Positions 2,790 to 42,335 of a DNA stretch of 48,480 nucleotides are shown in pieces. The first letter of the stretch is position 1. Each line of letters opens with the position of its first letter. Source of the stretch: a virus; the IMG/VR virus record IMGVR_UViG_3300035698_024300, positions 1-48,480 of that record. One strand, given 5' to 3'. The position numbers were made by a program, and so were the translations under genes. The notes beneath the pieces were generated by a model. It saw only the letters and a list, made by a program, of their open reading frames with translations, did no database searches and had not been told where the DNA came from.

Positions 2790-3544
2790 GACTGTCTCCT
2801 AATTCCTTTGTTCCACGCCGACAAAAAGTTTGTTGCGCTAGCAATGTCACGACTGGCTCGTTTGACGTACGTGATTTTAACGCAACTTGGGTCTGACTCC
2901 AACTGTTTCATGATGGCATCCACCTCAGTCTTTAAGTCACGGATCAACGGAGCAACCGCAATAATTCTTTTTGTGCGTTGGACATCAGCCTTGGTGGCCC
3001 TGCTATTACGTTCGTTGAACTTTTCCTCAGCGATGGAAGCAATCGCCTCTTTTTCCGACATGTTGCACTCAGCTTGCTTCGCTTTGATTCTTGCTCTTCG
3101 CTCTCTCGCCAGGCGAGAGGTCCGCCTTTTTTTGAAATCAGCACGAATCTTAGTAAGCTCGTCTAGGATAACCCGTGGAGATTCCAGGTTCTTGACATCT
3201 AAGTCTGAGATGCGGTTATTGGTATTCCCAAGCGCCTGTCTCACACGTGGCAGTCTGCCACAAGAAAATGGCAACCATTGGTTATCACCTGTGGAGATAT
3301 AGGTGGTTATGTCAACCCAGTATCGGCTTTTCCACCTATTGGTCTGCTTCTTTGACCTTGTCCACCTAAATGAATATGGTCCGTGGCTCGAAACCTCTTC
3401 GGGCATCGAGGCAAAAATCTTAAACGTTCTTGTGTCCAGATAATGTCTTGGCCGACAATCCTCCTCAACGCTTTCAGAGCGCAGGTAATGTCTGTAGATG
3501 TGTGCTTCTCTCATAGAGCATAGTATGCGTCGAAACGCTACCAT
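2786..3544 (-). CDS. Hypothetical protein, paralogue of neighbour (252 aa)
   Basis: Same architecture as the gene at 2007: an aromatic N-terminal domain, a basic helical middle (FKKRRTSRLARERRARIKAK, about residues 136-155) and a C-terminal helix with SATNFLSAW. The start is uncertain. The first ATG (3544) lacks a good SD, and an internal ATG about 10 codons later begins MREAHIYRHYL. It is the first gene after the tRNA-like sequence at 3577 and probably heads a three-gene coupled operon. Function unknown. Confidence 0.75.
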   Translation of the reverse strand: MVAFRRILCSMREAHIYRHYLRSESVEEDCRPRHYLDTRTFKIFASMPEEVSSHGPYSFRWTRSKKQTNRWKSRYWVDITTYISTGDNQWLPFSCGRLPRVRQALGNTNNRISDLDVKNLESPRVILDELTKIRADFKKRRTSRLARERRARIKAKQAECNMSEKEAIASIAEEKFNERNSRATKADVQRTKRIIAVAPLIRDLKTEVDAIMKQLESDPSCVKITYVKRASRDIASATNFLSAWNKGIRRQS

Positions 3545-3576
3545 TTTCTAACGAAACAGCGAATATAAGAAATTAG

Positions 3577-3648
3577 TTCGGGAACTAGGACTTGAACCTA
3601 GAGTGACCTAAAATTGATTCAGAAAACTTGCCTGTTACCTATTCCCGA
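3577..3648 (-). tRNA. Degenerate or atypical tRNA (anticodon possibly CAA)
   Basis: On the minus strand there is a perfect 7-bp acceptor stem (TCGGGAA/TTCCCGA) and a perfect T-arm (CTAGG TTCAAGT CCTAG). The anticodon stem contains wobble pairs (TCTGA/TTAGG) with loop ATCAATT, which would read CAA. The D-arm pairs poorly. Size (72 nt) and spacing fit a tRNA. The CAA reading would suggest Leu, but the long variable arm expected of tRNA-Leu is absent and position 37 is a pyrimidine, so identity is unsure. It may be a decayed tRNA. Confidence 0.55.
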
Positions 3649-3672
3649 AGTCTCTTGGATAGGGACTGTGTT

Positions 3673-3852
3673 TTAGCCAAGCTTACTTTTTACAAAGTCT
3701 ACAAGCTTTGGAACGCCCCAAGAAAGTACCAGGCCAGCACCAACAAGCAGAGCTGCGAGTGGAAGACTTGGGATACCTGTGGTTGCGCCGTACAATGCAA
3801 GGAGTGCTGCGGCTGGACCGCCCCATCTTGCTACTTTTTTTACTTTATCCAT
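3673..3852 (-). CDS. Small hydrophobic membrane protein (59 aa)
   Basis: A short open frame starting MDKVKKVARWGGPAAALLAL and ending VDFVKSKLG. A positively charged N-terminus is followed by two hydrophobic stretches (about residues 11-25 and 31-47), so it probably has two membrane helices in a hairpin. A GAGGT Shine-Dalgarno sits 7 bases before the ATG, which strongly supports translation. Size and layout resemble small holin-like phage proteins, but no lysis gene lies beside it, so the role is open. Confidence 0.75.
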   Translation of the reverse strand: MDKVKKVARWGGPAAALLALYGATTGIPSLPLAALLVGAGLVLSWGVPKLVDFVKSKLG

Positions 3853-3937
3853 TATTTACCTCGTTAAGTGAACGATGATAAATATCAACAACCGCACAAA
3901 AAGTCTCATAGGCGTTTAACAAGGCCAATCCTTGCTC

Positions 3938-4789
3938 CTAAAAGTTAAAAATTTTCTTTCTAGCTTTTTTGAGTTTTGAGAAGTCCTTGTCGGAATGTCC
4001 TCTGGCTAGGAAAGCCCACCTGGAAATGATATTGCCCCCTTCATCGAAAAAGTAATCAGGCTCATCGATAGATCGGGCATCCATCAGCCTGCGTGCCGTT
4101 GTGGAAATAATGTTTTCTTTAGTGACCACATACTCGGCACTGCCTACGTCTAACAGAAATTCAGAAATGGCCTGATCAGCCTCATAAAGTTTTCTTGCCA
4201 CCTTCTGGAAAAGTGGGAATCGGAAAGTATCATTGATCACGTCGTGTACCTTTACCTTGCGTGCTTTACGTTGGATACGACGTTCCAAAGCCTTTAGTTC
4301 CGGCTTTTTCTCTTCGAGTCCTTTTTGCAGCCGCTCGATTTCCTTGTCTTTTGCTCGAAGTTTATACTCCAAGGTCTTTGCAGCTTGTTTGAGTGCCGAT
4401 GCCAGACGCTCGTCAACAACCTTGCCCATGCCCATCTCACCTTCTGAAGGAAGGCTCTTTCGTGCCTTTTCGTTTCGGATGTCATCAAGTGCTTGTCGCC
4501 TCCGAGCTAGGGACAAATAATTGTGGAATTGCAGACTGTGTTCTTTGAGAGCAACCTCGGAAATATCCTTTAAGTGACGGTAATAACTCCTCAGTGCAAT
4601 GTCACCACGTTTTGCATACATCGCCTCTTCTTCAGCTTTCTCAACACGCATTTGTGTACTGTATGGTGTTGGCACCGACTTTTCTTCTGCGTCTTCTGAG
4701 GGCTTCTCATCGACGGCCCCAACTTCTTTTTTTTCTTCAAGCATTCTGAATGCAATGCCGACCTTGGCCTTCTTATCATTTTTGGTCAT
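3938..4789 (-). CDS. Coiled-coil hypothetical protein (283 aa)
   Basis: Charged, soluble and largely helical, with an acidic disordered N-terminus (residues 18-45) and a long coiled coil (about residues 130-180, YKLRAKDKEIERLQKGLEEK). The C-terminal domain may be globular. A GAGGAG-type SD lies just before the ATG, and a promoter-terminator module lies upstream. It could be a scaffold or DNA-associated protein, but there is no recognisable family motif. Confidence 0.78.
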   Translation of the reverse strand: MTKNDKKAKVGIAFRMLEEKKEVGAVDEKPSEDAEEKSVPTPYSTQMRVEKAEEEAMYAKRGDIALRSYYRHLKDISEVALKEHSLQFHNYLSLARRRQALDDIRNEKARKSLPSEGEMGMGKVVDERLASALKQAAKTLEYKLRAKDKEIERLQKGLEEKKPELKALERRIQRKARKVKVHDVINDTFRFPLFQKVARKLYEADQAISEFLLDVGSAEYVVTKENIISTTARRLMDARSIDEPDYFFDEGGNIISRWAFLARGHSDKDFSKLKKARKKIFNF

Positions 4790-21588: not shown

Positions 21589-22233
21589 TTACCAGGTTGA
21601 AGGATTTGTGTAGATGTCAGTCTTACTGGTTTTCCCATCCAAGATGTCATCAATTTTTCCGAAGCGTACTTCACTCTTGGCTCCTCGGGCATGCTGCTCC
21701 ATAATATTGTCATAATAGGCTCGTCCTCGGTGCTCCCCAACCATATTGGTAACTGATTCAAGAACAATTGACAGTTTCGTAACGAGGAGAGAACTCGGAC
21801 AGATTAGCCATATGAGAAGTCCTAGCCACCATAGTCCTGTGCCAATGGTTGCAAGCCCCACAAAAAGCCCCAAAAGCCCAAAAGTGAACCCTCGTTGTAC
21901 TGATTGGCGAACATGCCTCATTTCGTGGTGTAATGTAAATGTGTTCATTCCATTTTCAGAAAGCATGATGGCGTAAGGGAACAAAGCAGTGCCGTTCCAG
22001 GGTTTCTTGTGCTTAGAGCCATCTGAGTAAGTCTTTTCAAGGAGGTACCACCCTCCAAACTTTTTCTCATCATTGACAGGCCAAGAGTCATTTCTCAGAA
22101 CGGTACAAAGTGCACCTTCCCACCAGAAAAGCCGCCGACCCCACATTGCATGGATGACCAAAACTACCAGCCAGCCAAAAAGGGCAAGTAGTGGCACAGA
22201 GCATATTCTCAATATCGTAAAAAATGTATTCAT
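21589..22233 (-). CDS. Membrane protein with HExxH metalloprotease-like motif (214 aa)
   Basis: One N-terminal membrane helix (about residues 7-30), then a domain containing FTLHHEMRHVRQ with HEMRH at 103-107, the zinc-binding HExxH signature. Two further hydrophobic helices follow (about 113-150), and the C-terminal part is soluble. It might be a membrane-bound zinc protease-like protein, perhaps of the kind annotated as peptidase-like domains near phage genomes' accessory genes. A third zinc ligand cannot be named with confidence; E169 or H170 in the region around VGEHRGRAYYDN is a possibility. Confidence 0.68.
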   Translation of the reverse strand: MNTFFTILRICSVPLLALFGWLVVLVIHAMWGRRLFWWEGALCTVLRNDSWPVNDEKKFGGWYLLEKTYSDGSKHKKPWNGTALFPYAIMLSENGMNTFTLHHEMRHVRQSVQRGFTFGLLGLFVGLATIGTGLWWLGLLIWLICPSSLLVTKLSIVLESVTNMVGEHRGRAYYDNIMEQHARGAKSEVRFGKIDDILDGKTSKTDIYTNPSTW

Positions 22234-22249
22234 GTTGTACGTTCCTGTG

Positions 22250-25200
22250 TTAGGCGAGAACTTTCGATTCGATGCCGTCGTTTTTGACTTCGATCATTCG
22301 TTCAGCAACCTCCTTGACTGGAGTGACATGCGAAATCACAAGAATCGTCTTGAAGTACCCACGAAGGAAGGTAAGCATATCCATACAGCTCTGGATGTTA
22401 TTTTCATCCAACGCACCGAAGCCCTCATCGATAATGAGCACATCGGGTTTTGGAAGCGACGATAGGTTGATTAACGCAGCCCTTAGGGCCATGCTTGCAA
22501 TTGTCTTTTCCATGCCAGAAGCCAACTCGATAATACGCTGGCTGTGTTCATCCTGAATATAGACGTCCATGACATTGGAGTTAATATCAGTCTCCAGACC
22601 AATCTTGAAGTCGGTGATACCCTCAAGAATCTTTGACAGTTCTTCGTTGATGGCAGGAAGCTGGGACTTGAGGACCATAGCGGGGATTCCCGTCTTTGAG
22701 AATGCGGATAGGATGGAGTCATAAATCTTCAATTTGCCTATCAACGATTTTGTTTCTTCCTCTTCCATAATAAGGTTTTTCAACCCCTCTTTCTTGCCGC
22801 CTAGTTTTACCAGGGTTTCCTGGCGCCTTGTTTCAATATCCGCAACTAGTTGACGACATTTATCAAGCTGAATTTTCTTCTTCTCATACTCTTTGCCCTC
22901 TAACACGTTGACCTTCTTCTTCAATGAAGAAATTTCGTCCTTGATTTTCTTGACTTCAAGTTTTGTTGATGTGAACTCCTTTTTCAGGAGTTCACGGTGC
23001 TTTTTGCTTGATTCAATAGTGCGAATAAGATCAAATTCCTGACGGTCCAAGGTTTGGTGTGTGGTAATCTGCTCACGAAGTTTTTTAGCAACGTACTCTT
23101 CAAAAGTCTTTTCATTTATCTCATATTGGGACGTGAGTTTCTTTACCAGCTCTTCTTGAGTTTTAACCTTCTTTTTGTCTCGGTGACCGTCTTTGATATA
23201 ATGGCAGTCTGGAAACTGGTCACCACAAGGCACGACTTCCAGTTTTTTGATGTTCTTTTTCTGGTTGTTTAGTACGGCCTTGTGCGAGTTCAGCTCTGCT
23301 CTAAGTTCATGCAAAAGCGACTTTAAGGATTCAAATTCTTCAAGCTGTTCCTTGAGCGACACAACGTCGATTTTCTTCTTGTCAGCCTTTACGTCTTTCA
23401 GCTTAGTTTCATTAGATTTGAGTCCTGATTTTAGTCTTACAAGACTGTCTGACTTTGCCTTGACAGTCTTTTCACCAGCAATCACCTTTCGCTCCAGCTC
23501 TTCCATGTGAGCGAGGTCGACATCCGCAGCATTTTTTTCGTGATGCATCAGCCAAAGCTTGACTGAATCCTTTTGCTCACGGAGTTTTCGTAGTCGCTCC
23601 TCAAGTGAGCCAACTTCATTTTCTCCCTGGGCAATTATCTTCCTCGTTTTCACGATTTGATTGCTTACGGTCTGTGGTGAAAGAGAGTTTCCACGAGTGT
23701 TAAGTCCGCTGTAATCATCCTTGCAGAGGTAATAGAGGTTGTCAAATATATCAAGTTCTAGGAAGCGAGCCAGAATTTTCTTTCGCTCTGTTGGGCCTTC
23801 CTTGATAAAGCGATCTACCGAGCCCTGAGAGGACAGGGCAGTCAGTAGAAAGTCATTGGATGTTCCGACAAGCTTTCTGATTTCTTTGTCCGTGTCGTCA
23901 CGAGTGACGGAGTTCATAACCACTTTTTTCTCGTGACCTGTTACTTCATCCCGTTCAATGCGATAGAAATTCAAAGTGGTGGTGGTCTTGTTCGGGTCTC
24001 GCTTTGAAGTCTTCTTTTTAGGGACGACCCTAGTGCTCTTTCGTTCAACGATATAATCCGTGCCACCCACATTGATACGGACCTTACCACGACACCAATT
24101 TTTACGTCGGTTAATGATGTGAGCATTTTTCATCGGACCACGATCGGTGGTGTTGTACAAAACATACATCAAGGCTCCGACAATGCTGCTTTTCCCTATC
24201 TTGTTTGGACCGAAAATACCTACTATGCCCTCTAGGTCTGAGAAATCAATTTTATTGCCTTCGCCGTAACGGAAAATGTTGTCAAACTCCAGATATTTGA
24301 TCGACCAGTTGGTTGTCCTGGCAATTTTGTCTGAGTCTCGAATCATGAGCTTTGACATGTAACCACGAATAAGCTGGTCTGCTTCTTCGATAGCATCACG
24401 GTCAAAGTTGTAGCTAGCGATATGAGCTGTTAGATAATCTAAGTAAAGCCGAACAACTGCGTCTGGATCCTGCCTTAGGCTTTTTTTGGAAATCTTAAGG
24501 TTGTCATTTGTAGACACATGGTCCATTCTTGACAACATATTGTATTTAAAGACTACCTCAGAAGCTTTCTTCTCTTCCCTGAGCGAATGGACCAATTTTC
24601 GGGCTTCGACACTAGGAATTGCTGAAGAGGAGGACACACGGAAACGGCTGCCCTTGAGGAAAGCTCGTGTGCCCCTTGAATCCTTGACTTTTTGCAGTGT
24701 GTTTTCAACTGAGCCTTCCCAGCCAATGGTTATAAAGGGCATGCGGTTCTCAAGCTCATGGAACTTGATGGACCAGTCATCCTTGTCCTTTATGTCCCAA
24801 ATCAAGTAACCCTTCTTTTCGGATTCTCCGAAGTTTTGTTGAATCAGGGAGCCAGGGTAAGCCATCCAAGGCTTAAGTTTTCCATTTTTGTCTTTACGCT
24901 GTGCTAGAGTCTGGTGCTTGTGAATGTCACCAAGCAAAGTAAAATCAAACTGTGCAAAGTCAGTAGTCACTGCTTCGGCGATGCCTTCTGGCATCTTCCA
25001 GTTGTTGTCCATTAAAGAACCTGCAACCGAACCGTGGTATAATGCTATATTGATCGCCCCTTCGATAGGTTTGACTTTGGGCCAGCCCTTTTGATCAAAA
25101 GGGGAATATACACACAGATGGACGTCTTTTCCTTTAACTTTCTCGCTGAGTTTGAAAGTTCCTGATTCACGTAGTAGGTGAGCACGAGGGTGCGCAATGG

Positions 25201-25498
25201 ATTCGTGAATTGGTGTGATTGTATCCTTGCGATATAAATTCGTCAGATTGCCATCGTGATTCCCTAAGATGGTGTAAGACGGTGCGATGTCCGCAAGCGA
25301 GCGAAACATCCAAGCAAGCCGTTCAATGATTTCTGGTGTTATACCCTGGGTTTTGGTATGGAACGTATCCCCTGTATTCACAATTAGGTCTGGCTTGTGG
25401 TGTCGAAGCTCTTCAAAAAGACGTTCAAAAGCTTGAACGTACTCTTTATGACGAGAAATGCCACGCCAATGTATGTCGGAGATGTGAGCAATTTTCAT
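22250..25498 (-). CDS. Fused SbcD-SbcC (Mre11-Rad50-like) recombination nuclease/ATPase (1082 aa)
   Basis: One polypeptide combining both subunits that in T4 are gp47 and gp46. Residues 1-250 are a metallophosphoesterase nuclease: D8-H10 (SDIHW), D44 (NTGDTF), GNHD at 79-82, H155 (YHGS) and GDIHKH at 190-195. From about 400 it is an SMC-like ATPase: Walker A GPNKIGKSS (430-438), a long coiled coil with a turn containing CGDQFPDC, a signature-like ASGMEKTIAS, and Walker B IIDEG at about 1022. Such complexes process DNA ends for recombination-dependent replication and may degrade host DNA. The start is ATG 25498, with AAAAAGGA upstream, overlapping the HNH stop as ATGA. Confidence 0.93.
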   Translation of the reverse strand: MKIAHISDIHWRGISRHKEYVQAFERLFEELRHHKPDLIVNTGDTFHTKTQGITPEIIERLAWMFRSLADIAPSYTILGNHDGNLTNLYRKDTITPIHESIAHPRAHLLRESGTFKLSEKVKGKDVHLCVYSPFDQKGWPKVKPIEGAINIALYHGSVAGSLMDNNWKMPEGIAEAVTTDFAQFDFTLLGDIHKHQTLAQRKDKNGKLKPWMAYPGSLIQQNFGESEKKGYLIWDIKDKDDWSIKFHELENRMPFITIGWEGSVENTLQKVKDSRGTRAFLKGSRFRVSSSSAIPSVEARKLVHSLREEKKASEVVFKYNMLSRMDHVSTNDNLKISKKSLRQDPDAVVRLYLDYLTAHIASYNFDRDAIEEADQLIRGYMSKLMIRDSDKIARTTNWSIKYLEFDNIFRYGEGNKIDFSDLEGIVGIFGPNKIGKSSIVGALMYVLYNTTDRGPMKNAHIINRRKNWCRGKVRINVGGTDYIVERKSTRVVPKKKTSKRDPNKTTTTLNFYRIERDEVTGHEKKVVMNSVTRDDTDKEIRKLVGTSNDFLLTALSSQGSVDRFIKEGPTERKKILARFLELDIFDNLYYLCKDDYSGLNTRGNSLSPQTVSNQIVKTRKIIAQGENEVGSLEERLRKLREQKDSVKLWLMHHEKNAADVDLAHMEELERKVIAGEKTVKAKSDSLVRLKSGLKSNETKLKDVKADKKKIDVVSLKEQLEEFESLKSLLHELRAELNSHKAVLNNQKKNIKKLEVVPCGDQFPDCHYIKDGHRDKKKVKTQEELVKKLTSQYEINEKTFEEYVAKKLREQITTHQTLDRQEFDLIRTIESSKKHRELLKKEFTSTKLEVKKIKDEISSLKKKVNVLEGKEYEKKKIQLDKCRQLVADIETRRQETLVKLGGKKEGLKNLIMEEEETKSLIGKLKIYDSILSAFSKTGIPAMVLKSQLPAINEELSKILEGITDFKIGLETDINSNVMDVYIQDEHSQRIIELASGMEKTIASMALRAALINLSSLPKPDVLIIDEGFGALDENNIQSCMDMLTFLRGYFKTILVISHVTPVKEVAERMIEVKNDGIESKVLA

Positions 25499-26184
25499 AT
25501 TGAGTCCTTTTTCAGAAGGGCTTTGGTCCGAGCCCCCCAAGTTTTTGTTTTTTTGTGGCATGAAATACAAAGTGTTCTTCCGTTACCAATATCCCACAGT
25601 TCGACACATTTCACAGCTTCCTCCAGGGTCTCGATGGCATTTCTCTGTATCAACAGAGCCAGAGGAACAATATGGTCTGCATTCAGATTTCCACCTTTTG
25701 TTTTGCAAAATTGACAGGTGTAATCATCTTTTTCAAAAACTGCTTGCCGCCAATTCTTGGATTCAATTCTATCTCGCAAGGCTTTGTTTAAGGTTTTCTT
25801 GTGTTGGTCTACTGGTTTCCAGTTGGGACTCTTCCTCCCAGCCAACCTTCCTTTGTTTGCCTTGCTTATTTTGTTCTTGGTGTGGTCAGAATGAGTTTTT
25901 CCAAAAAATCCATTGTTCTTACCACAAGTCGCCCGAGACATCTTTTCCAAAGATTGCCTTGTGTGCTTACGACCAAAAAAAGCATTTTTGTTGCCCTGGG
26001 CAGCTTCTGTTCTAGTTCTTCTCGGGATGCCAAATTTAATCAACTTGGCTCGCACAGTCGCATACGTAACGCCAAACAACTCTGCAACTTGCCTTAAAGA
26101 TAACTCTTGTGTGCAATACAGTTTGGTAAGTGTTTCTTTGTTAGTGCCACGCCAATGAATACCAGATATGTGAGCAATTTTCAT
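25495..26184 (-). CDS. HNH homing endonuclease with NUMOD3-type repeats (229 aa)
   Basis: The C-terminal HNH nuclease has CQFC, LNADHIVPLALL and GNGRTLCISCH; the NUMOD3-like DNA-binding repeats are at GRKHTRQSLEKMSRA and GKTHSDHTKNKISKANKG. An N-terminal HTH lies near LSLRQVAELFGVTYATVRAKL. The first 14 residues (MKIAHISGIHWRGT) duplicate the start of the downstream SbcDC protein, including their bases. The ORF's 3' end supplies the SD for SbcDC and overlaps it by ATGA. A mobile gene that cleaves a target and copies itself in. Its own start has no good SD. Confidence 0.88.
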   Translation of the reverse strand: MKIAHISGIHWRGTNKETLTKLYCTQELSLRQVAELFGVTYATVRAKLIKFGIPRRTRTEAAQGNKNAFFGRKHTRQSLEKMSRATCGKNNGFFGKTHSDHTKNKISKANKGRLAGRKSPNWKPVDQHKKTLNKALRDRIESKNWRQAVFEKDDYTCQFCKTKGGNLNADHIVPLALLIQRNAIETLEEAVKCVELWDIGNGRTLCISCHKKTKTWGARTKALLKKDSI

Positions 26185-26261
26185 ATTATTTTACGATCTA
26201 TGAGTAACTACTTTCTTCCCATGCACACAATGTATGAAATGAGTAAATTCAAAACTCTTTG

Positions 26262-27290
26262 TTAATTTAACAGAGACGTGATTCTCATTCTGAGTTCGTA
26301 GTTCTCTGTAAGAGGTTTAGCAGAGTTGAGTAGTTTCATAAACTCGTTTCGAGTCATGTCGCCGATATCCTTGTCCCAGGAGGGGTATTCGAGAATCCGA
26401 ACTGATATATCAAACTCTGCCAGGCGTTTTGCAAGCCTAAATTGTTTTTTCTGAGCCTTGGGTTCAGGGTCAAATGCCAATACAACTGGTGTCTTATTGA
26501 TAACGATTTTCTGTAAAAGCGCAAATTCTAAAGTCAATTCCTCAGAGCCAAGAACCGCTGTAGCATTCTGGTTCGCCTTCAGCAAATCAAAGGGGCCTTC
26601 GACTATAGTCAAGGGCTCTTCCCAATCAATGTTCAATTCATTGAAGATTATCTTACGTCGGTCGCTTGGCGGGTTCTTGTAATTGAACATTGGCTTCCTT
26701 GTCCAGGAACGAGCCGTCCAATAAGATAGTTCTCCGCTTGAATCATAAGACGGAATGATAATGCGATACTTGCACCTAGCTTCACGGTCTTCTGTGATGC
26801 CAAGCTTCCAATACCACAACTCAGTCCTTGTATTTATATTCCTCGATTTTAAATATTCGAGTGCCTGTTGCACATAACGTCGTGTGACAGGAGAATGTAT
26901 GGAGTCGAAGTCCCTGACAAGCTCTGCCAATAACTTAAAACCCGCTGGGAGTTCGACAACAGTTTCTTCTGGCCCTTCATCCGAATCCTGGGCCTCAAGC
27001 TCCTCAGCGTTTACAAAAGATTCCTTGTACTCTTTGAGATTTGCAGGATGGTATTTGGCGATAAGCTTGTAGATGTTGCGAGCCTTATACCCACAAACCC
27101 AACAGTGAACAAAATGCGGATGAACCGTCTTAATGACCAGCTTCTGCTTAGTGTAAGATGAACCTTTAAATTGCCTGCACATAGGACAAACGACGGAAAA
27201 GTTTTTCCCGCCGTTTGAAGGTTTTCCATCGCCAAAAACCTTTTCTATGAAGTCAATTGCTTGACCTTGTGTGAAATAATTTTGACTCAT
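26262..27290 (-). CDS. DnaG/T7-type DNA primase (342 aa)
   Basis: An N-terminal zinc ribbon (CPMC, later CWVCGYKA) recognises template; the TOPRIM catalytic part has LTIVEGPFDLLKAN with the key Glu, and VVLAFDPEPKAQKK with the Asp-containing segment. Between these is an RNA polymerase-like domain (YRIIIPSYDSSGELSYWTAR). It lays down RNA primers for lagging-strand replication. No helicase domain is fused. It was presumably directly upstream of SbcDC before the HNH gene entered. Confidence 0.85.
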   Translation of the reverse strand: MSQNYFTQGQAIDFIEKVFGDGKPSNGGKNFSVVCPMCRQFKGSSYTKQKLVIKTVHPHFVHCWVCGYKARNIYKLIAKYHPANLKEYKESFVNAEELEAQDSDEGPEETVVELPAGFKLLAELVRDFDSIHSPVTRRYVQQALEYLKSRNINTRTELWYWKLGITEDREARCKYRIIIPSYDSSGELSYWTARSWTRKPMFNYKNPPSDRRKIIFNELNIDWEEPLTIVEGPFDLLKANQNATAVLGSEELTLEFALLQKIVINKTPVVLAFDPEPKAQKKQFRLAKRLAEFDISVRILEYPSWDKDIGDMTRNEFMKLLNSAKPLTENYELRMRITSLLN

Positions 27291-27302
27291 CTGACTTCTG
27301 TC

Positions 27303-27725
27303 TTAGGCCACCTTTGTACAAACCTTGTGGGGAACAAGGATCATCTTGTCCTTGACCATGATGAAGCAGTAAATGGCGTAGCCAGGTTCCAACTCAGGAT
27401 TCTTCTGTAGTTCTTCCTCGGTGGGCAGTGACTCGATCCAAAACTGTGACAAGACCATGCCGTGGGACCCGCTCTCGAAGTGTACCTGCTCAGTAGCTTC
27501 GGCAAATCGGCTAGGAGCCTCGGAACCATCTGGATAAATATCCTCAGACCCCAGGATCATGCCGTGTTGACCCATTAGCCAGTCAACAATGGCCTGTTTG
27601 GAAAATGCGGCAGCTGACACCTGACTCTGTTTGCTTCGTACCTGCTTGGCATTGCCCTGAAGGTACACTGTCTGACCCACAGGCCAAAGGTGCGGCTTCC
27701 TCGGATCATCAATTTCTCTAGCCAT
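27303..27725 (-). CDS. Hypothetical protein (140 aa)
   Basis: Begins MAREIDDPRKPHLWPVGQTV. Mostly strands with some helices, ending MILVPHKVCTKVA. No recognised motifs. It starts the leftward transcript from the divergent region, 20 bases or more past a GGTTCA-type promoter, and lies 12 bases before the primase. Its position suggests an early gene. Confidence 0.75.
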   Translation of the reverse strand: MAREIDDPRKPHLWPVGQTVYLQGNAKQVRSKQSQVSAAAFSKQAIVDWLMGQHGMILGSEDIYPDGSEAPSRFAEATEQVHFESGSHGMVLSQFWIESLPTEEELQKNPELEPGYAIYCFIMVKDKMILVPHKVCTKVA

Positions 27726-27754
27726 TCTCGTCGTTCCAGTCTGTTTTAGAAAGT

Positions 27755-27770
27755 GTTATATCACTATAAC
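27755..27770. promoter_or_regulatory. Inverted repeat overlapping -10, possible operator
   Basis: GTTATA-TCAC-TATAAC straddles the -10 of the leftward promoter. A related 9-mer, TTAGGTTAT, occurs on the minus strand (27766-27774) and again on the plus strand (27881-27889), flanking the divergent gap. Confidence 0.35.
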
Positions 27771-27794
27771 CTAATGCTCGGTACCAAGTGAACC
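27764..27794 (-). promoter_or_regulatory. GGTTCA-type promoter for the leftward arm
   Basis: Minus strand GGTTCA at 27789-27794. At 19 bases the hexamer is TTATAG; at 20 it is TATAGT. It precedes the gene starting 27725. The rest of the 214-base gap (27726-27939) holds the start region of the rightward arm. I see no convincing plus-strand promoter with proper spacing there, only a lone TATAAT at 27847. Confidence 0.65.
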
Positions 27795-27939
27795 CTTTTC
27801 TGTTAATGGCAGTTTTGGCCGACAAATAACTTTCTTGACCCATCCTTATAATATTGTTCGATCATATTAGTACAGATAGGTTAGGTTATCATTGAAAGTT
27901 AGCCTAAACTCTACTTACTGACAGACGGTGAATCTATAG

Positions 27940-30381
27940 ATGAGAGCACGAATCAAAAGAACTGCGAATATCATGCAAGTCCCAAGCGAGTTTGCCAAAC
28001 TGGAAAAAATTACCCAGGGTGGTGAGTTTGTTTACAAAGTCAAATTCAGGATTGACCCAGTCAAGGCTGCGAGGGCCAAGGCATTCAAAGTTCGTATCTC
28101 AGCTGCTGAGCAGCCTGAGGTAAAGAAGACCTTTCGGACCTTTACCAATTTCAATGCCGAACTTATCACCAAACGCTTGTTAGCACGTCCAGCGGCGCTC
28201 AAGGACATTGCTCGGCAAAGGGATAGCGCTAGGTTTTTTACCTATTTGTCGGATATCACTAAACGAATTCCAAATAGCCGAACCATACACCTGTCGAAAG
28301 GCGTTTTCACAGCGCCCCAGATCGCTACGAAGGTTCGACGAATACGTCCTGCACTAGCAAGTGATTTAACAGATAGAAACTTACGTCTACCAGTTCTAGA
28401 CCAAAACCTAAATCGTAACATCGATTCAGATAGAACAGTCTCAACTCGGCTGATTCGTTCTTCAGCCACAAGGTTGCTTTTTGGCTGCAAGTGTGACCCA
28501 GCAAGCTTCGTTGGTGCTCGTACAAACGTTATTCGTTCTGCGGTTAGAGCCTCTGCTGGAACCGTCTCGAAAAAGACTCCGTCAAATCAGTCCAGGCTTG
28601 CCCCAGGGAGACTGTTGGTCGGGTCTCTTTTGAATAACCGACGGTACTCCAATCAGGCTCAAGTCAATTCATCACGTTTTCTCAACACAATCGTCCGTGA
28701 AGAGTCTTCCTGGATCGAAATTGAAGAAGAGCTGCGCATTCCCATCGGCGACCTTGATGAGGACGAGTTCTACTATATTTTTGAACTGGTCGATATGCGG
28801 AATATTCGTGTTCAAACTATCACACGTGCTGTGCCTCACAGCAAAAATGTATCCCAACTTCAAATTCCAACAAAGGCTCCAACCGTTTCTGCTGTCCCCA
28901 TTGGGAAACTCGGTAAAACTGTTTTGAATATTAAACAGAACGACCTCAATGCAACATCCGTCAACATCTACAGACGTGATGTCAAAAAAGCTGTACCAAA
29001 TATCGATGCACAGTATGACCTAGTAGGTTCCCTTGATATTGAACAAGGATATGGTTTCAGAAAAATAGAAGACGTGTACGCATCTACCAATCCTATCATC
29101 TACCGTGTTGTGCCAGTAAACTCAAATGGTATTCTAGGCGCTGAATTCGACTCTGTCGTCGTTCAACAACAAAGAGGGAACTTGGCCTCTAGAACTAACT
29201 TTTTCCGACGAACCTATTACGTTTCAGTTACACACGAAATTTTGGATAGCTCTATCGTCATTTCAGTCTCTGATGTTCCTTCAGGGCCTATCGCCGTTAG
29301 TTTACAACGCAAGGATAAGACGATAAACCAAAGGACGTTTACGAGCATCGGTGACATCACACTAGTAGATGAAGATTCTAACGCTCCTATTGTATTTGAG
29401 GATTCCTCGGTTAAGGAAGACCGCATCTATGAGTACCGTGTAATTCTATTGTTCATTGATGGAGCTTCGGAGATAGCAGCAAATAACCTTATCATCGAAT
29501 TTTGCCCTATCGCTAACAACATTCTGAGTTTGGAGGTCACCGAGCCAGAGGTGGAGGAATCAGGAGATGACGTTGATGTCATCTTCAATATAACAAAAAA
29601 TGTAATCCAGGGGGACGCAGATTTAGTTAAAACTTTCCTAGGTGAGCAGGGATTTACATCGGAATACCAAGACCAGCTGCTGGCCAACCGTAACTTGCTT
29701 CAAGATTTGTTTGCTGTCAGAATTACCAGAACCAACCTGGGCACTGGTGAATTGGAAGATTTTGGCATTATTGATAGTGCAGATTTCTCAGACAAGAAAT
29801 TCGGGAGAGTTAAAGGAGTAAAACCTTTGCAGGGTGGGTTTGGTTATAACTACAATATCACAGCTCACGCCCGAGAAACGGACACACTCTTTGAAACCTT
29901 ATCTAGAACAATTACTCCACGAACAAATGTCAGTTACTCATTTGCACCAGCTAAGTGGAAACACCCATTGGCTCTGCTCAGGGGCAATCTCTCTAGTCAA
30001 TCTTCTCGACTAAGAAACCACTCAAAGAGTACCTTTACTTTTGGTCGGGTTGTTGATACACAAAATGTAGTTGTATCTTTAGCTGACATAATTCCTTCTT
30101 TGACCGAGGGCAAGATCAGCCAGTTTGGAGAGAGTAATATTTTTATCCAATGGAAAGTTCAGGGTAATGTCAATAAGATAGACCATTTCATAGTTATCCT
30201 TGACGTTCTTGGCATTCGAACTGTTGTTGGCAAATCACACAACATCACGAATTCCAACTACTTCCAATTTGTAGATGAACTTACAAACCAAGAGTGTGGA
30301 GAATTGACCTACTACATTGTTCCTGTGATGTTCGACTATAGTCGGGGTCCAGAACTCAAAACAAACTCGGTGGTAATTTAA
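27940..30381 (+). CDS. Virion structural protein, large (813 aa)
   Basis: A long beta-rich protein at the head of the rightward arm. After a basic region (residues 1-260, many short R-rich stretches) it has repeated Ig/fibronectin-like strand patterns: VDMRNIRVQTITR, TAPTVSAVPIG-type starts and PISYRVVPVNSNG-like repeats. Such domains are common in phage tail and baseplate proteins. ATG at 27940; a second ATG (MQVPSEFAKLEKI) is also possible. It joins the next gene by a one-base TAATG overlap. Confidence 0.75.
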   Translation: MRARIKRTANIMQVPSEFAKLEKITQGGEFVYKVKFRIDPVKAARAKAFKVRISAAEQPEVKKTFRTFTNFNAELITKRLLARPAALKDIARQRDSARFFTYLSDITKRIPNSRTIHLSKGVFTAPQIATKVRRIRPALASDLTDRNLRLPVLDQNLNRNIDSDRTVSTRLIRSSATRLLFGCKCDPASFVGARTNVIRSAVRASAGTVSKKTPSNQSRLAPGRLLVGSLLNNRRYSNQAQVNSSRFLNTIVREESSWIEIEEELRIPIGDLDEDEFYYIFELVDMRNIRVQTITRAVPHSKNVSQLQIPTKAPTVSAVPIGKLGKTVLNIKQNDLNATSVNIYRRDVKKAVPNIDAQYDLVGSLDIEQGYGFRKIEDVYASTNPIIYRVVPVNSNGILGAEFDSVVVQQQRGNLASRTNFFRRTYYVSVTHEILDSSIVISVSDVPSGPIAVSLQRKDKTINQRTFTSIGDITLVDEDSNAPIVFEDSSVKEDRIYEYRVILLFIDGASEIAANNLIIEFCPIANNILSLEVTEPEVEESGDDVDVIFNITKNVIQGDADLVKTFLGEQGFTSEYQDQLLANRNLLQDLFAVRITRTNLGTGELEDFGIIDSADFSDKKFGRVKGVKPLQGGFGYNYNITAHARETDTLFETLSRTITPRTNVSYSFAPAKWKHPLALLRGNLSSQSSRLRNHSKSTFTFGRVVDTQNVVVSLADIIPSLTEGKISQFGESNIFIQWKVQGNVNKIDHFIVILDVLGIRTVVGKSHNITNSNYFQFVDELTNQECGELTYYIVPVMFDYSRGPELKTNSVVI

Positions 30382-41555: not shown

Positions 41556-42335
41556 ATGGTTGTTACTGACGAAACTTTGCCTGCAACATTGTTTGAACTT
41601 TACATAGCTCAAAAATTGTCTATCCAAAAGATTGCCAAGAAACTTGACAGCAGCTATGGCACAATTTATCGACGTTTAAAAAAGTTCGGCATTCCCGTAA
41701 GAAAAAAAACGGACTATCCTAATCCATTTTTAGGAAAGACGCATACATCTGCGGCTCGGCAAAAAATTAGTAAGGCCAACAAAGGTCAGCGTTGGGGTCC
41801 GCTTTCCGAAGAGACAAAAAAGAAAATTAGCGAGGCACACAAGGGCAAAGTAGTCTCAGCTGAAACAAAACAGAAAATATCCAAAAATCACGCAAACGTA
41901 TCTGGTCAAAATAATCCGATGTGGGGCGAGAAACACTCTTTGGAAACACGAAAGAAAATCTCCAAAGCAATTAAAGGAAAATTGCGAACTGGCAGTGAAC
42001 ACCATTGGTATAAAAAACCAAACGAAAGAGTGACTAGCCTTTTAATGCTAGTTCGAACTTGTACCCAGTACAAAAGCTGGCGTACATCCGTTTACAAGCG
42101 TGACAAGTACACGTGTGTTTGGTGTGGAAAAAACACTGGCAATGACAATAAATGTTGTCTGAACGCTGATCACATCAAGCCATTTGCATTGATCATAAAA
42201 GAAAATAAAATTACAACTCTTGAGCAAGCAATTAAATGTAAGCTGTTGTGGGATATCAAAAATGGCAGAACACTGTGTGTCGAATGCCACAAGACAACGA
42301 GTTCATTCGCAAAACGAATTTCTCACTATAGCTAA
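41556..42335 (+). CDS. HNH homing endonuclease with HTH and NUMOD3 repeats (259 aa)
   Basis: An N-terminal HTH (YIAQKLSIQKIAKKLDSSYG), then several NUMOD3-type repeats (GKTHTSAARQKISKANKG, EETKKKISEAHKGK, GEKHSLETRKKISKAIKG), and an HNH nuclease (CVWCGKNTG, LNADHIKPFALI, NGRTLCVECHKTT). Related to the HNH protein at 25495 and the remnant at 37075. A copy of the tail of the preceding structural gene lies immediately downstream (42363-42403), see findings. Confidence 0.88.
   Translation: MVVTDETLPATLFELYIAQKLSIQKIAKKLDSSYGTIYRRLKKFGIPVRKKTDYPNPFLGKTHTSAARQKISKANKGQRWGPLSEETKKKISEAHKGKVVSAETKQKISKNHANVSGQNNPMWGEKHSLETRKKISKAIKGKLRTGSEHHWYKKPNERVTSLLMLVRTCTQYKSWRTSVYKRDKYTCVWCGKNTGNDNKCCLNADHIKPFALIIKENKITTLEQAIKCKLLWDIKNGRTLCVECHKTTSSFAKRISHYS

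Follow-up and report, generated by a model that had tools for sequence, protein, structure and literature searches.

A putative HNH homing endonuclease gene between two copies of the SbcDC start in a phage genome

We find that an HNH endonuclease gene in a phage genome lies between two diverged copies of the start of its neighbor, a gene encoding an SbcD-SbcC (Mre11/Rad50-type) fusion protein. The locus is part of a 48,480-nucleotide stretch of viral DNA (IMG/VR record IMGVR_UViG_3300035698_024300), which we call the window. The endonuclease gene is inserted at the SbcDC start, this start is duplicated across the insert, the SbcDC gene is intact, the displaced start is captured in frame by the endonuclease gene, and the arrangement recurs in relatives. 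We propose that this HNH gene and others like it are probably homing endonuclease cassettes, each bearing a diverged replacement terminus of the gene that it targets. Four parts of this proposal are ones that we infer from sequence comparisons: cleavage of the uninterrupted site, homing, immunity conferred by the differences between the copies, and the identity of the SbcDC-joined copy as the one imported into the window.

The HNH gene and the duplicated SbcDC start

On the minus strand of the window, a primase-like gene (26262-27290) is followed by a 77-nt A+T-rich gap (26185-26261; 30% GC) in which no sigma-70-like promoter was recognised, then by the HNH ORF (25495-26184), and then by the SbcD-SbcC fusion gene (22250-25498), which is the presumed homing target. 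Fusion of SbcD and SbcC in one gene is common in these phages, and Mre11/Rad50 fusions have been described (PMC3175470).

The starts of the HNH and SbcDC genes share a 43-nt direct repeat whose copies, 686 nt apart, are identical at 38/43 positions (88%). Copy A (26145-26187, minus strand) is the displaced SbcDC start, consisting of AAT and codons 1-13, and forms the in-frame N-terminus of the HNH ORF, at the inner edge of the gap behind the primase. Copy B (25459-25501, minus strand) is the start of the intact SbcDC gene. A first-pass annotation of this DNA had described 14 shared codons; the repeat itself stands, and it runs from 3 nt 5' of the ATG to the first base after codon 13 (GGC A). 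The same annotation had placed the base differences in the middle of the repeat, and all five mismatches do fall within one 10-nt span (P ~0.005 if randomly scattered), in the four consecutive codons 6-9 and at codon positions 3, 3, 2, 3, and 3, while the flanks of the repeat remain identical. At the differing codons, the HNH gene reads ATA TCT GGT ATT and SbcDC reads ATC TCC GAC ATA; over the two copies, pS is 0.52 and pN is 0.03. The sole amino-acid difference is at residue 8, which is Asp in SbcDC and Gly in the HNH protein. This Asp is invariant across the SbcDC family alignment and supplies the first metal ligand in the SbcD/Mre11 motif.

It is hardly credible that the repeat is an assembly artefact or a product of chance, for which nothing speaks other than the metagenomic origin of the DNA. 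The next-best matches to the 43-mer in the window are 24/43 (plus strand) and 23/43 (minus strand), and this gap, together with the lack of a second copy in 90 related loci (see below), excludes a chance repeat. A second contig (IMGVR_UViG_3300022821_000019) has the same arrangement, and the two contigs show 2 differences over 13.2 kb; this counters an assembly artefact weakly because the second contig is perhaps from the same sample as the window contig. Parallel cases in unrelated contigs (see below) argue against both artefact and chance.

The HNH protein (229 aa) begins with the SbcDC-derived residues 1-13, followed by an HTH (about residues 16-58, at 26011-26139; helices at residues 16-25, 30-37, and 41-51), a NUMOD3 motif (residues 71-107, at 25864-25974; Pfam E=1.4e-14), and an HNH nuclease domain (about residues 145-215, at 25540-25752; Pfam E 2e-4), all on the minus strand. 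Such a combination of DNA-binding modules (HTH, NUMOD) and a nuclease domain is that of a free-standing phage HNH homing endonuclease, and several HNH families in PHROGs match the protein. In a structure model based on 14 homologues (mean pLDDT 82, pTM 0.47), residues 16-51 form an HTH of three helices and the C-terminal part adopts an HNH fold; among solved structures the model is nearest to 5h0m, the HNH endonuclease of phage GVE2, although the match is weak (Foldseek E 0.015). Homologues align only from about residue 16 on and residues 1-10 are predicted to be coil, and for these reasons residues 1-13 seem to have been added to the protein from its target. We rejected a group I intron or an intein as the housing of the HNH gene, given that there is no Rfam match to a group I intron in window positions 22000-28000 and that SbcDC is intact without splicing. 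Another HNH gene of this subfamily is present in the window (41556-42335, plus strand), with an HTH and four NUMOD3 motifs, and no terminus duplication was detected around it.

The two genes are tightly joined. The HNH stop codon TGA (25495-25497) overlaps the SbcDC ATG (25496-25498) as ATGA and, as the first-pass annotation had noticed, the 3' end of the HNH gene encodes the SD of SbcDC, an AAGGA that is a good SD by its sequence (25505-25509, minus strand). In the HNH frame there is no alternative ATG, GTG, or TTG ahead of the HTH.

Related SbcDC and exonuclease loci

Scans of IMG/VR gave 90 further related SbcDC loci, a few of which are the same contig. A second start copy is present in 0/90 of these (best upstream match at most 24/43, versus 38/43 in the window), and two copies as the ancestral state can therefore be dismissed. 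In the closest relative, L024, whose SbcDC is 51% identical to that of the window, the stop codon of the primase gene overlaps with the start of SbcDC. The primase is likewise followed by a single SbcDC start in L016, L017, L018, L021, and L027, and in more distant relatives another gene often intervenes between the two. The HNH gene is absent from the equivalent locus in relatives and hence sporadic in its presence; the empty relatives are single-copy and the window has two diverged copies, both of which are traits of the fungal mORF type discussed below.

Relatives carry a single SbcDC start, which in the closest of them comes directly behind the primase. The HNH gene has therefore been inserted at this start, in frame with the displaced start of its target, and the target keeps a complete second start. 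The first-pass annotation had proposed just such an insertion, with a second, altered start kept or restored and with a single start in phages lacking the HNH gene, and the comparison bears it out on each of these points. It had further proposed that the endonuclease took over the start codon and the leader of SbcDC. The copy of the start codon is there, but the 77 nt in front of it may not represent the ancestral leader, given the overlap of primase and SbcDC in L024.

The SbcDC start may be targeted repeatedly. Between the primase and SbcDC genes of L066, at the site occupied by the HNH gene in the window, there is an ORF (L066:3099-3998, plus strand) with weak Pfam matches to a ROS/MucR-like zinc finger and a TnsA-like nuclease, and its stop overlaps the TTG start of SbcDC. 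Because this nuclease ORF is unrelated to the HNH protein and occupies the same place, it suggests that the SbcDC start is a recurrent target. A possible remnant of an SbcDC start ahead of the L066 nuclease was set aside: the leader aligns to L064, but the remnant is too short for a claim.

Two other features of these SbcDC genes were seen. In L018 (reverse strand of 1-375), an intein appears to be inserted in SbcDC at its conserved GNHD motif, where the sequence is ...ILGNHDCFTEAHEVLTKNGWKKFSN.... In L064, L069, L070, L076, and L078, a -10-like box (e.g. TATCAT) precedes the SbcDC ATG by ~6-7 nt and there is no SD, suggesting that SbcDC transcripts are leaderless in this clade.

A second target gene is found with the closest full-length homologues of the window HNH protein, L110 and L111, which are located between dUTPase and 5'-3' exonuclease genes. 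A truncated exonuclease start lies 5' of the HNH gene (MQERPILIIDGMNIFVRA and a stop codon in L110, MQERPILIIDGYNLFVRA and a stop codon in L111), and the intact exonuclease gene behind the HNH gene opens with MNERPILIVDSMNIFVRHF. The naming of the gene as an exonuclease was tested by profile. An HNH-free relative, L191, has one exonuclease start. Compared with L191, the intact L110 gene is identical at 35/51 positions (69%) in its first 51 nt and at 48, 46, and 47/51 (90-94%) in the next blocks (Fisher P 9e-5), and the divergent tract and the duplication both end at nt 51. Given that the divergence is confined to a tract of the duplication's length, the joined start in L110/L111 is a replaced tract and not a simple tandem duplicate. 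A replaced tract is the expected leftover of a cassette with its own gene end. L191 is matched better by the displaced L110 copy (40/51) than by the joined one (35/51); the displaced L111 copy, at 36/51, is hardly closer than the joined one. A foreign joined copy and a native displaced copy are supported for L110/L111. For the window, the comparison is with L024, whose SbcDC is 51% identical and whose start is about equally similar to the two copies (33 and 34/39), and the relatives nearest in DNA did not single out either copy as the native one; an HNH-less relative of the window phage above 51% protein identity was not found in the IMG/VR scans.

The 8.6-kb loci of L110 and L111 are themselves 97% identical. 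Among their densest difference clusters is 3926-3939, inside the displaced exonuclease start, with 7 substitutions in 14 nt, and the restored copy is identical between the two.

These comparisons bear on the main rival to a replacement cassette, which is plain target-site duplication followed by drift. Here, repair of staggered nicks ~43 nt apart would have duplicated the start, after which copy B remained under selection and copy A was free to change. The duplicated stretch borders the insert precisely on either side, which fits this account, as do the flanks of the repeat that are still identical and the fact that the HNH homing enzymes MobA and MobE are nickases (PMC2988022). However, changes in a drifting copy A should be mostly nonsynonymous, and 4/5 of the differences are at third positions (though five differences are few); synonymous sites are more diverged in the other cases too; and copy B of L110 is a replaced tract relative to the HNH-free L191. 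We therefore regard target-site duplication as unlikely.

Terminus duplications in a screen of HNH loci

A screen for terminus duplication covered 133 non-redundant HNH ORFs from fetched loci, with the flanks compared across each ORF and mismatched locus pairs used as the null; it was designed after the first cases had been sighted. In the 3' test, 7 pairs scored at least 35 versus 0.17 expected, and in the 5' test, 2 pairs scored at least 40 versus 0.10 expected. Altogether there are ~15 cases among the 133 HNH loci, ranging from strong to weak and located at gene starts or ends. The strong cases are the window, L110/L111, L285, L283, L279, and L256 (L257, L258, and L260 contain the same element as L256), and the moderate ones are L282, L176, L011, L131, L242, L262, L014, and L157. 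At 5' ends, the HNH frame begins with the displaced start in the window, L282, L283, and L262, while in L110 and L242 this start is a short ORF before the HNH gene. At 3' ends, the displaced end closes the HNH frame in L285, L279, L176, L011, L014, L131, and L157, and follows it in L256. The targets include DNA methyltransferase, terminase, exonuclease, VRR-NUC-like, and glycosyltransferase-like genes, names that are mostly given by sequence reading. The most striking case is L256, which encodes REVILEEFNV and a stop twice; the copies differ at six sites over these 10 codons, all of them synonymous, and no relative of its target gene was found in the phage collection.

Most of the screened HNH loci have no duplication, and neither do the HNH loci in annotated phage records (0/12; L288-L299). 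Three high-scoring loci were set aside as phenomena of another kind: in L186 the repeat joins two tail genes, in L216 there are tandem HNH genes, and in L263 an intron-like repeat of ~180 nt (2617-2798 and 3538-3717) flanks the HNH gene. The L263 repeat resembles group I intron sequence and perhaps represents tandem introns. The window locus is one of a set in which an HNH gene duplicates a gene terminus.

Duplication at both gene starts and gene ends speaks to two further explanations. One is translation capture only, in which the duplicated start serves to express the HNH gene and is unrelated to mobility or immunity. The in-frame N-terminal capture in the window, L282, and L283 is consistent with this, and in L110 the short upstream ORF ends a few nt before the HNH start. 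Nevertheless, no obvious SD was found for copy A of the window, and at the gene 3' ends duplicated in L285, L279, and L256 there is no start to be captured, leaving translation capture alone quite improbable. The other is that the nuclease binds copy A ahead of its own gene and thereby represses itself, by analogy with I-TevI, which is both an endonuclease and an autorepressor (PMC2988022). Copy A is indeed located at the HNH start, but in the 3'-end cases the copy is not at the position of an operator, and we consider self-repression of this kind very improbable.

The mechanism that we propose is one in which a free-standing HNH homing endonuclease gene moves together with a diverged replacement of its target gene's end. 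In the window, the cassette would have entered SbcDC within its first 13-14 codons. Copy A, the original start, would have been left on the outer side, where it now opens the nuclease reading frame, and copy B, the cassette's version of the start, would have been joined in frame to the remainder of SbcDC, which leaves the target gene complete. The five bases that distinguish the copies fall in the codons for the metal-binding Asp motif and would plausibly stop the nuclease from cutting its own genome; as the first-pass annotation had suggested, they may also mark the cleavage site.

Comparison with known systems

Homing endonucleases prefer conserved, functionally critical codons, which raises the question of how the target survives and how self-cutting is avoided. 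Introns and inteins answer it by splicing, and in the case of T4-type mobE and mobA the genes are split. The phage loci described here would have another solution, a replacement gene end borne by the nuclease gene, as may be the case at roughly 11% of the HNH loci sampled. We tentatively suggest that phage HNH homing endonucleases could include a widespread natural "home-and-rescue" class, in which a recoded, uncuttable target start or end is carried along, the most conserved positions of important genes are occupied harmlessly, and gene ends are swapped between phages. If true, phages would commonly trade the termini of their genes in this way, some of the odd fusions at N- and C-termini in annotated phage genes would be accounted for, and recoded-rescue gene drives would have a natural counterpart to serve as a model. 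Home-and-rescue (HomeR) gene drives have been engineered (PMC7968924). In the general design of such drives, a nuclease is linked to a recoded copy of the target, and the phage cassette would work in a like way; the drives are a man-made analogy only and not a family.

Among phage genes, the closest comparison is with MobA, MobE, and Seg of the T4 family, which are also found beside or inside replication and nucleotide genes, at functionally critical codons (PMC2988022). Unlike the window HNH gene, MobA and MobE split their target genes. Terminus duplication is not mentioned in that review and is not described in a survey of phage homing endonucleases (PMC10448857), and we found no phage precedent in the open-access papers searched, which leave out most subscription journals.

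In Tremella fuciformis mitochondria, "introns with N-terminal duplication" have been described (PMC7315562). As in the phage cases, the N-terminal part of a host gene is duplicated across a mobile insert, and exchange of gene fragments was proposed there. The Tremella inserts differ in being mitochondrial, intron-like, and larger, whereas the phage duplications span ~13-17 codons and involve no intron here.

The mORFs of fungal mitochondria offer a close parallel. In Glomus sp., mORFs in atp6, atp9, cox2, and nad3 bring replacement C-termini and the native ends are displaced (PMC3630166), and an Allomyces atp6 mORF is cited in that paper. As in the window, an endonuclease ORF lies between two diverged copies of a target end. 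The carried copy is fused in frame to the gene body and the native end is displaced to the far side, as would also hold in the window if copy B is the imported one. The fungal endonucleases are of the LAGLIDADG or GIY-YIG type, mitochondrial, and found at 3' ends, whereas the window has a phage HNH gene with HTH and NUMOD3 at a 5' end, and other phage cases are at 3' ends. Because the fungal mORFs and the Tremella introns have been described and the phage sources searched are silent on terminus duplication, we take the phage cases to be a known principle in a new setting, namely that of the fungal mORFs, here with HNH nucleases in phages.
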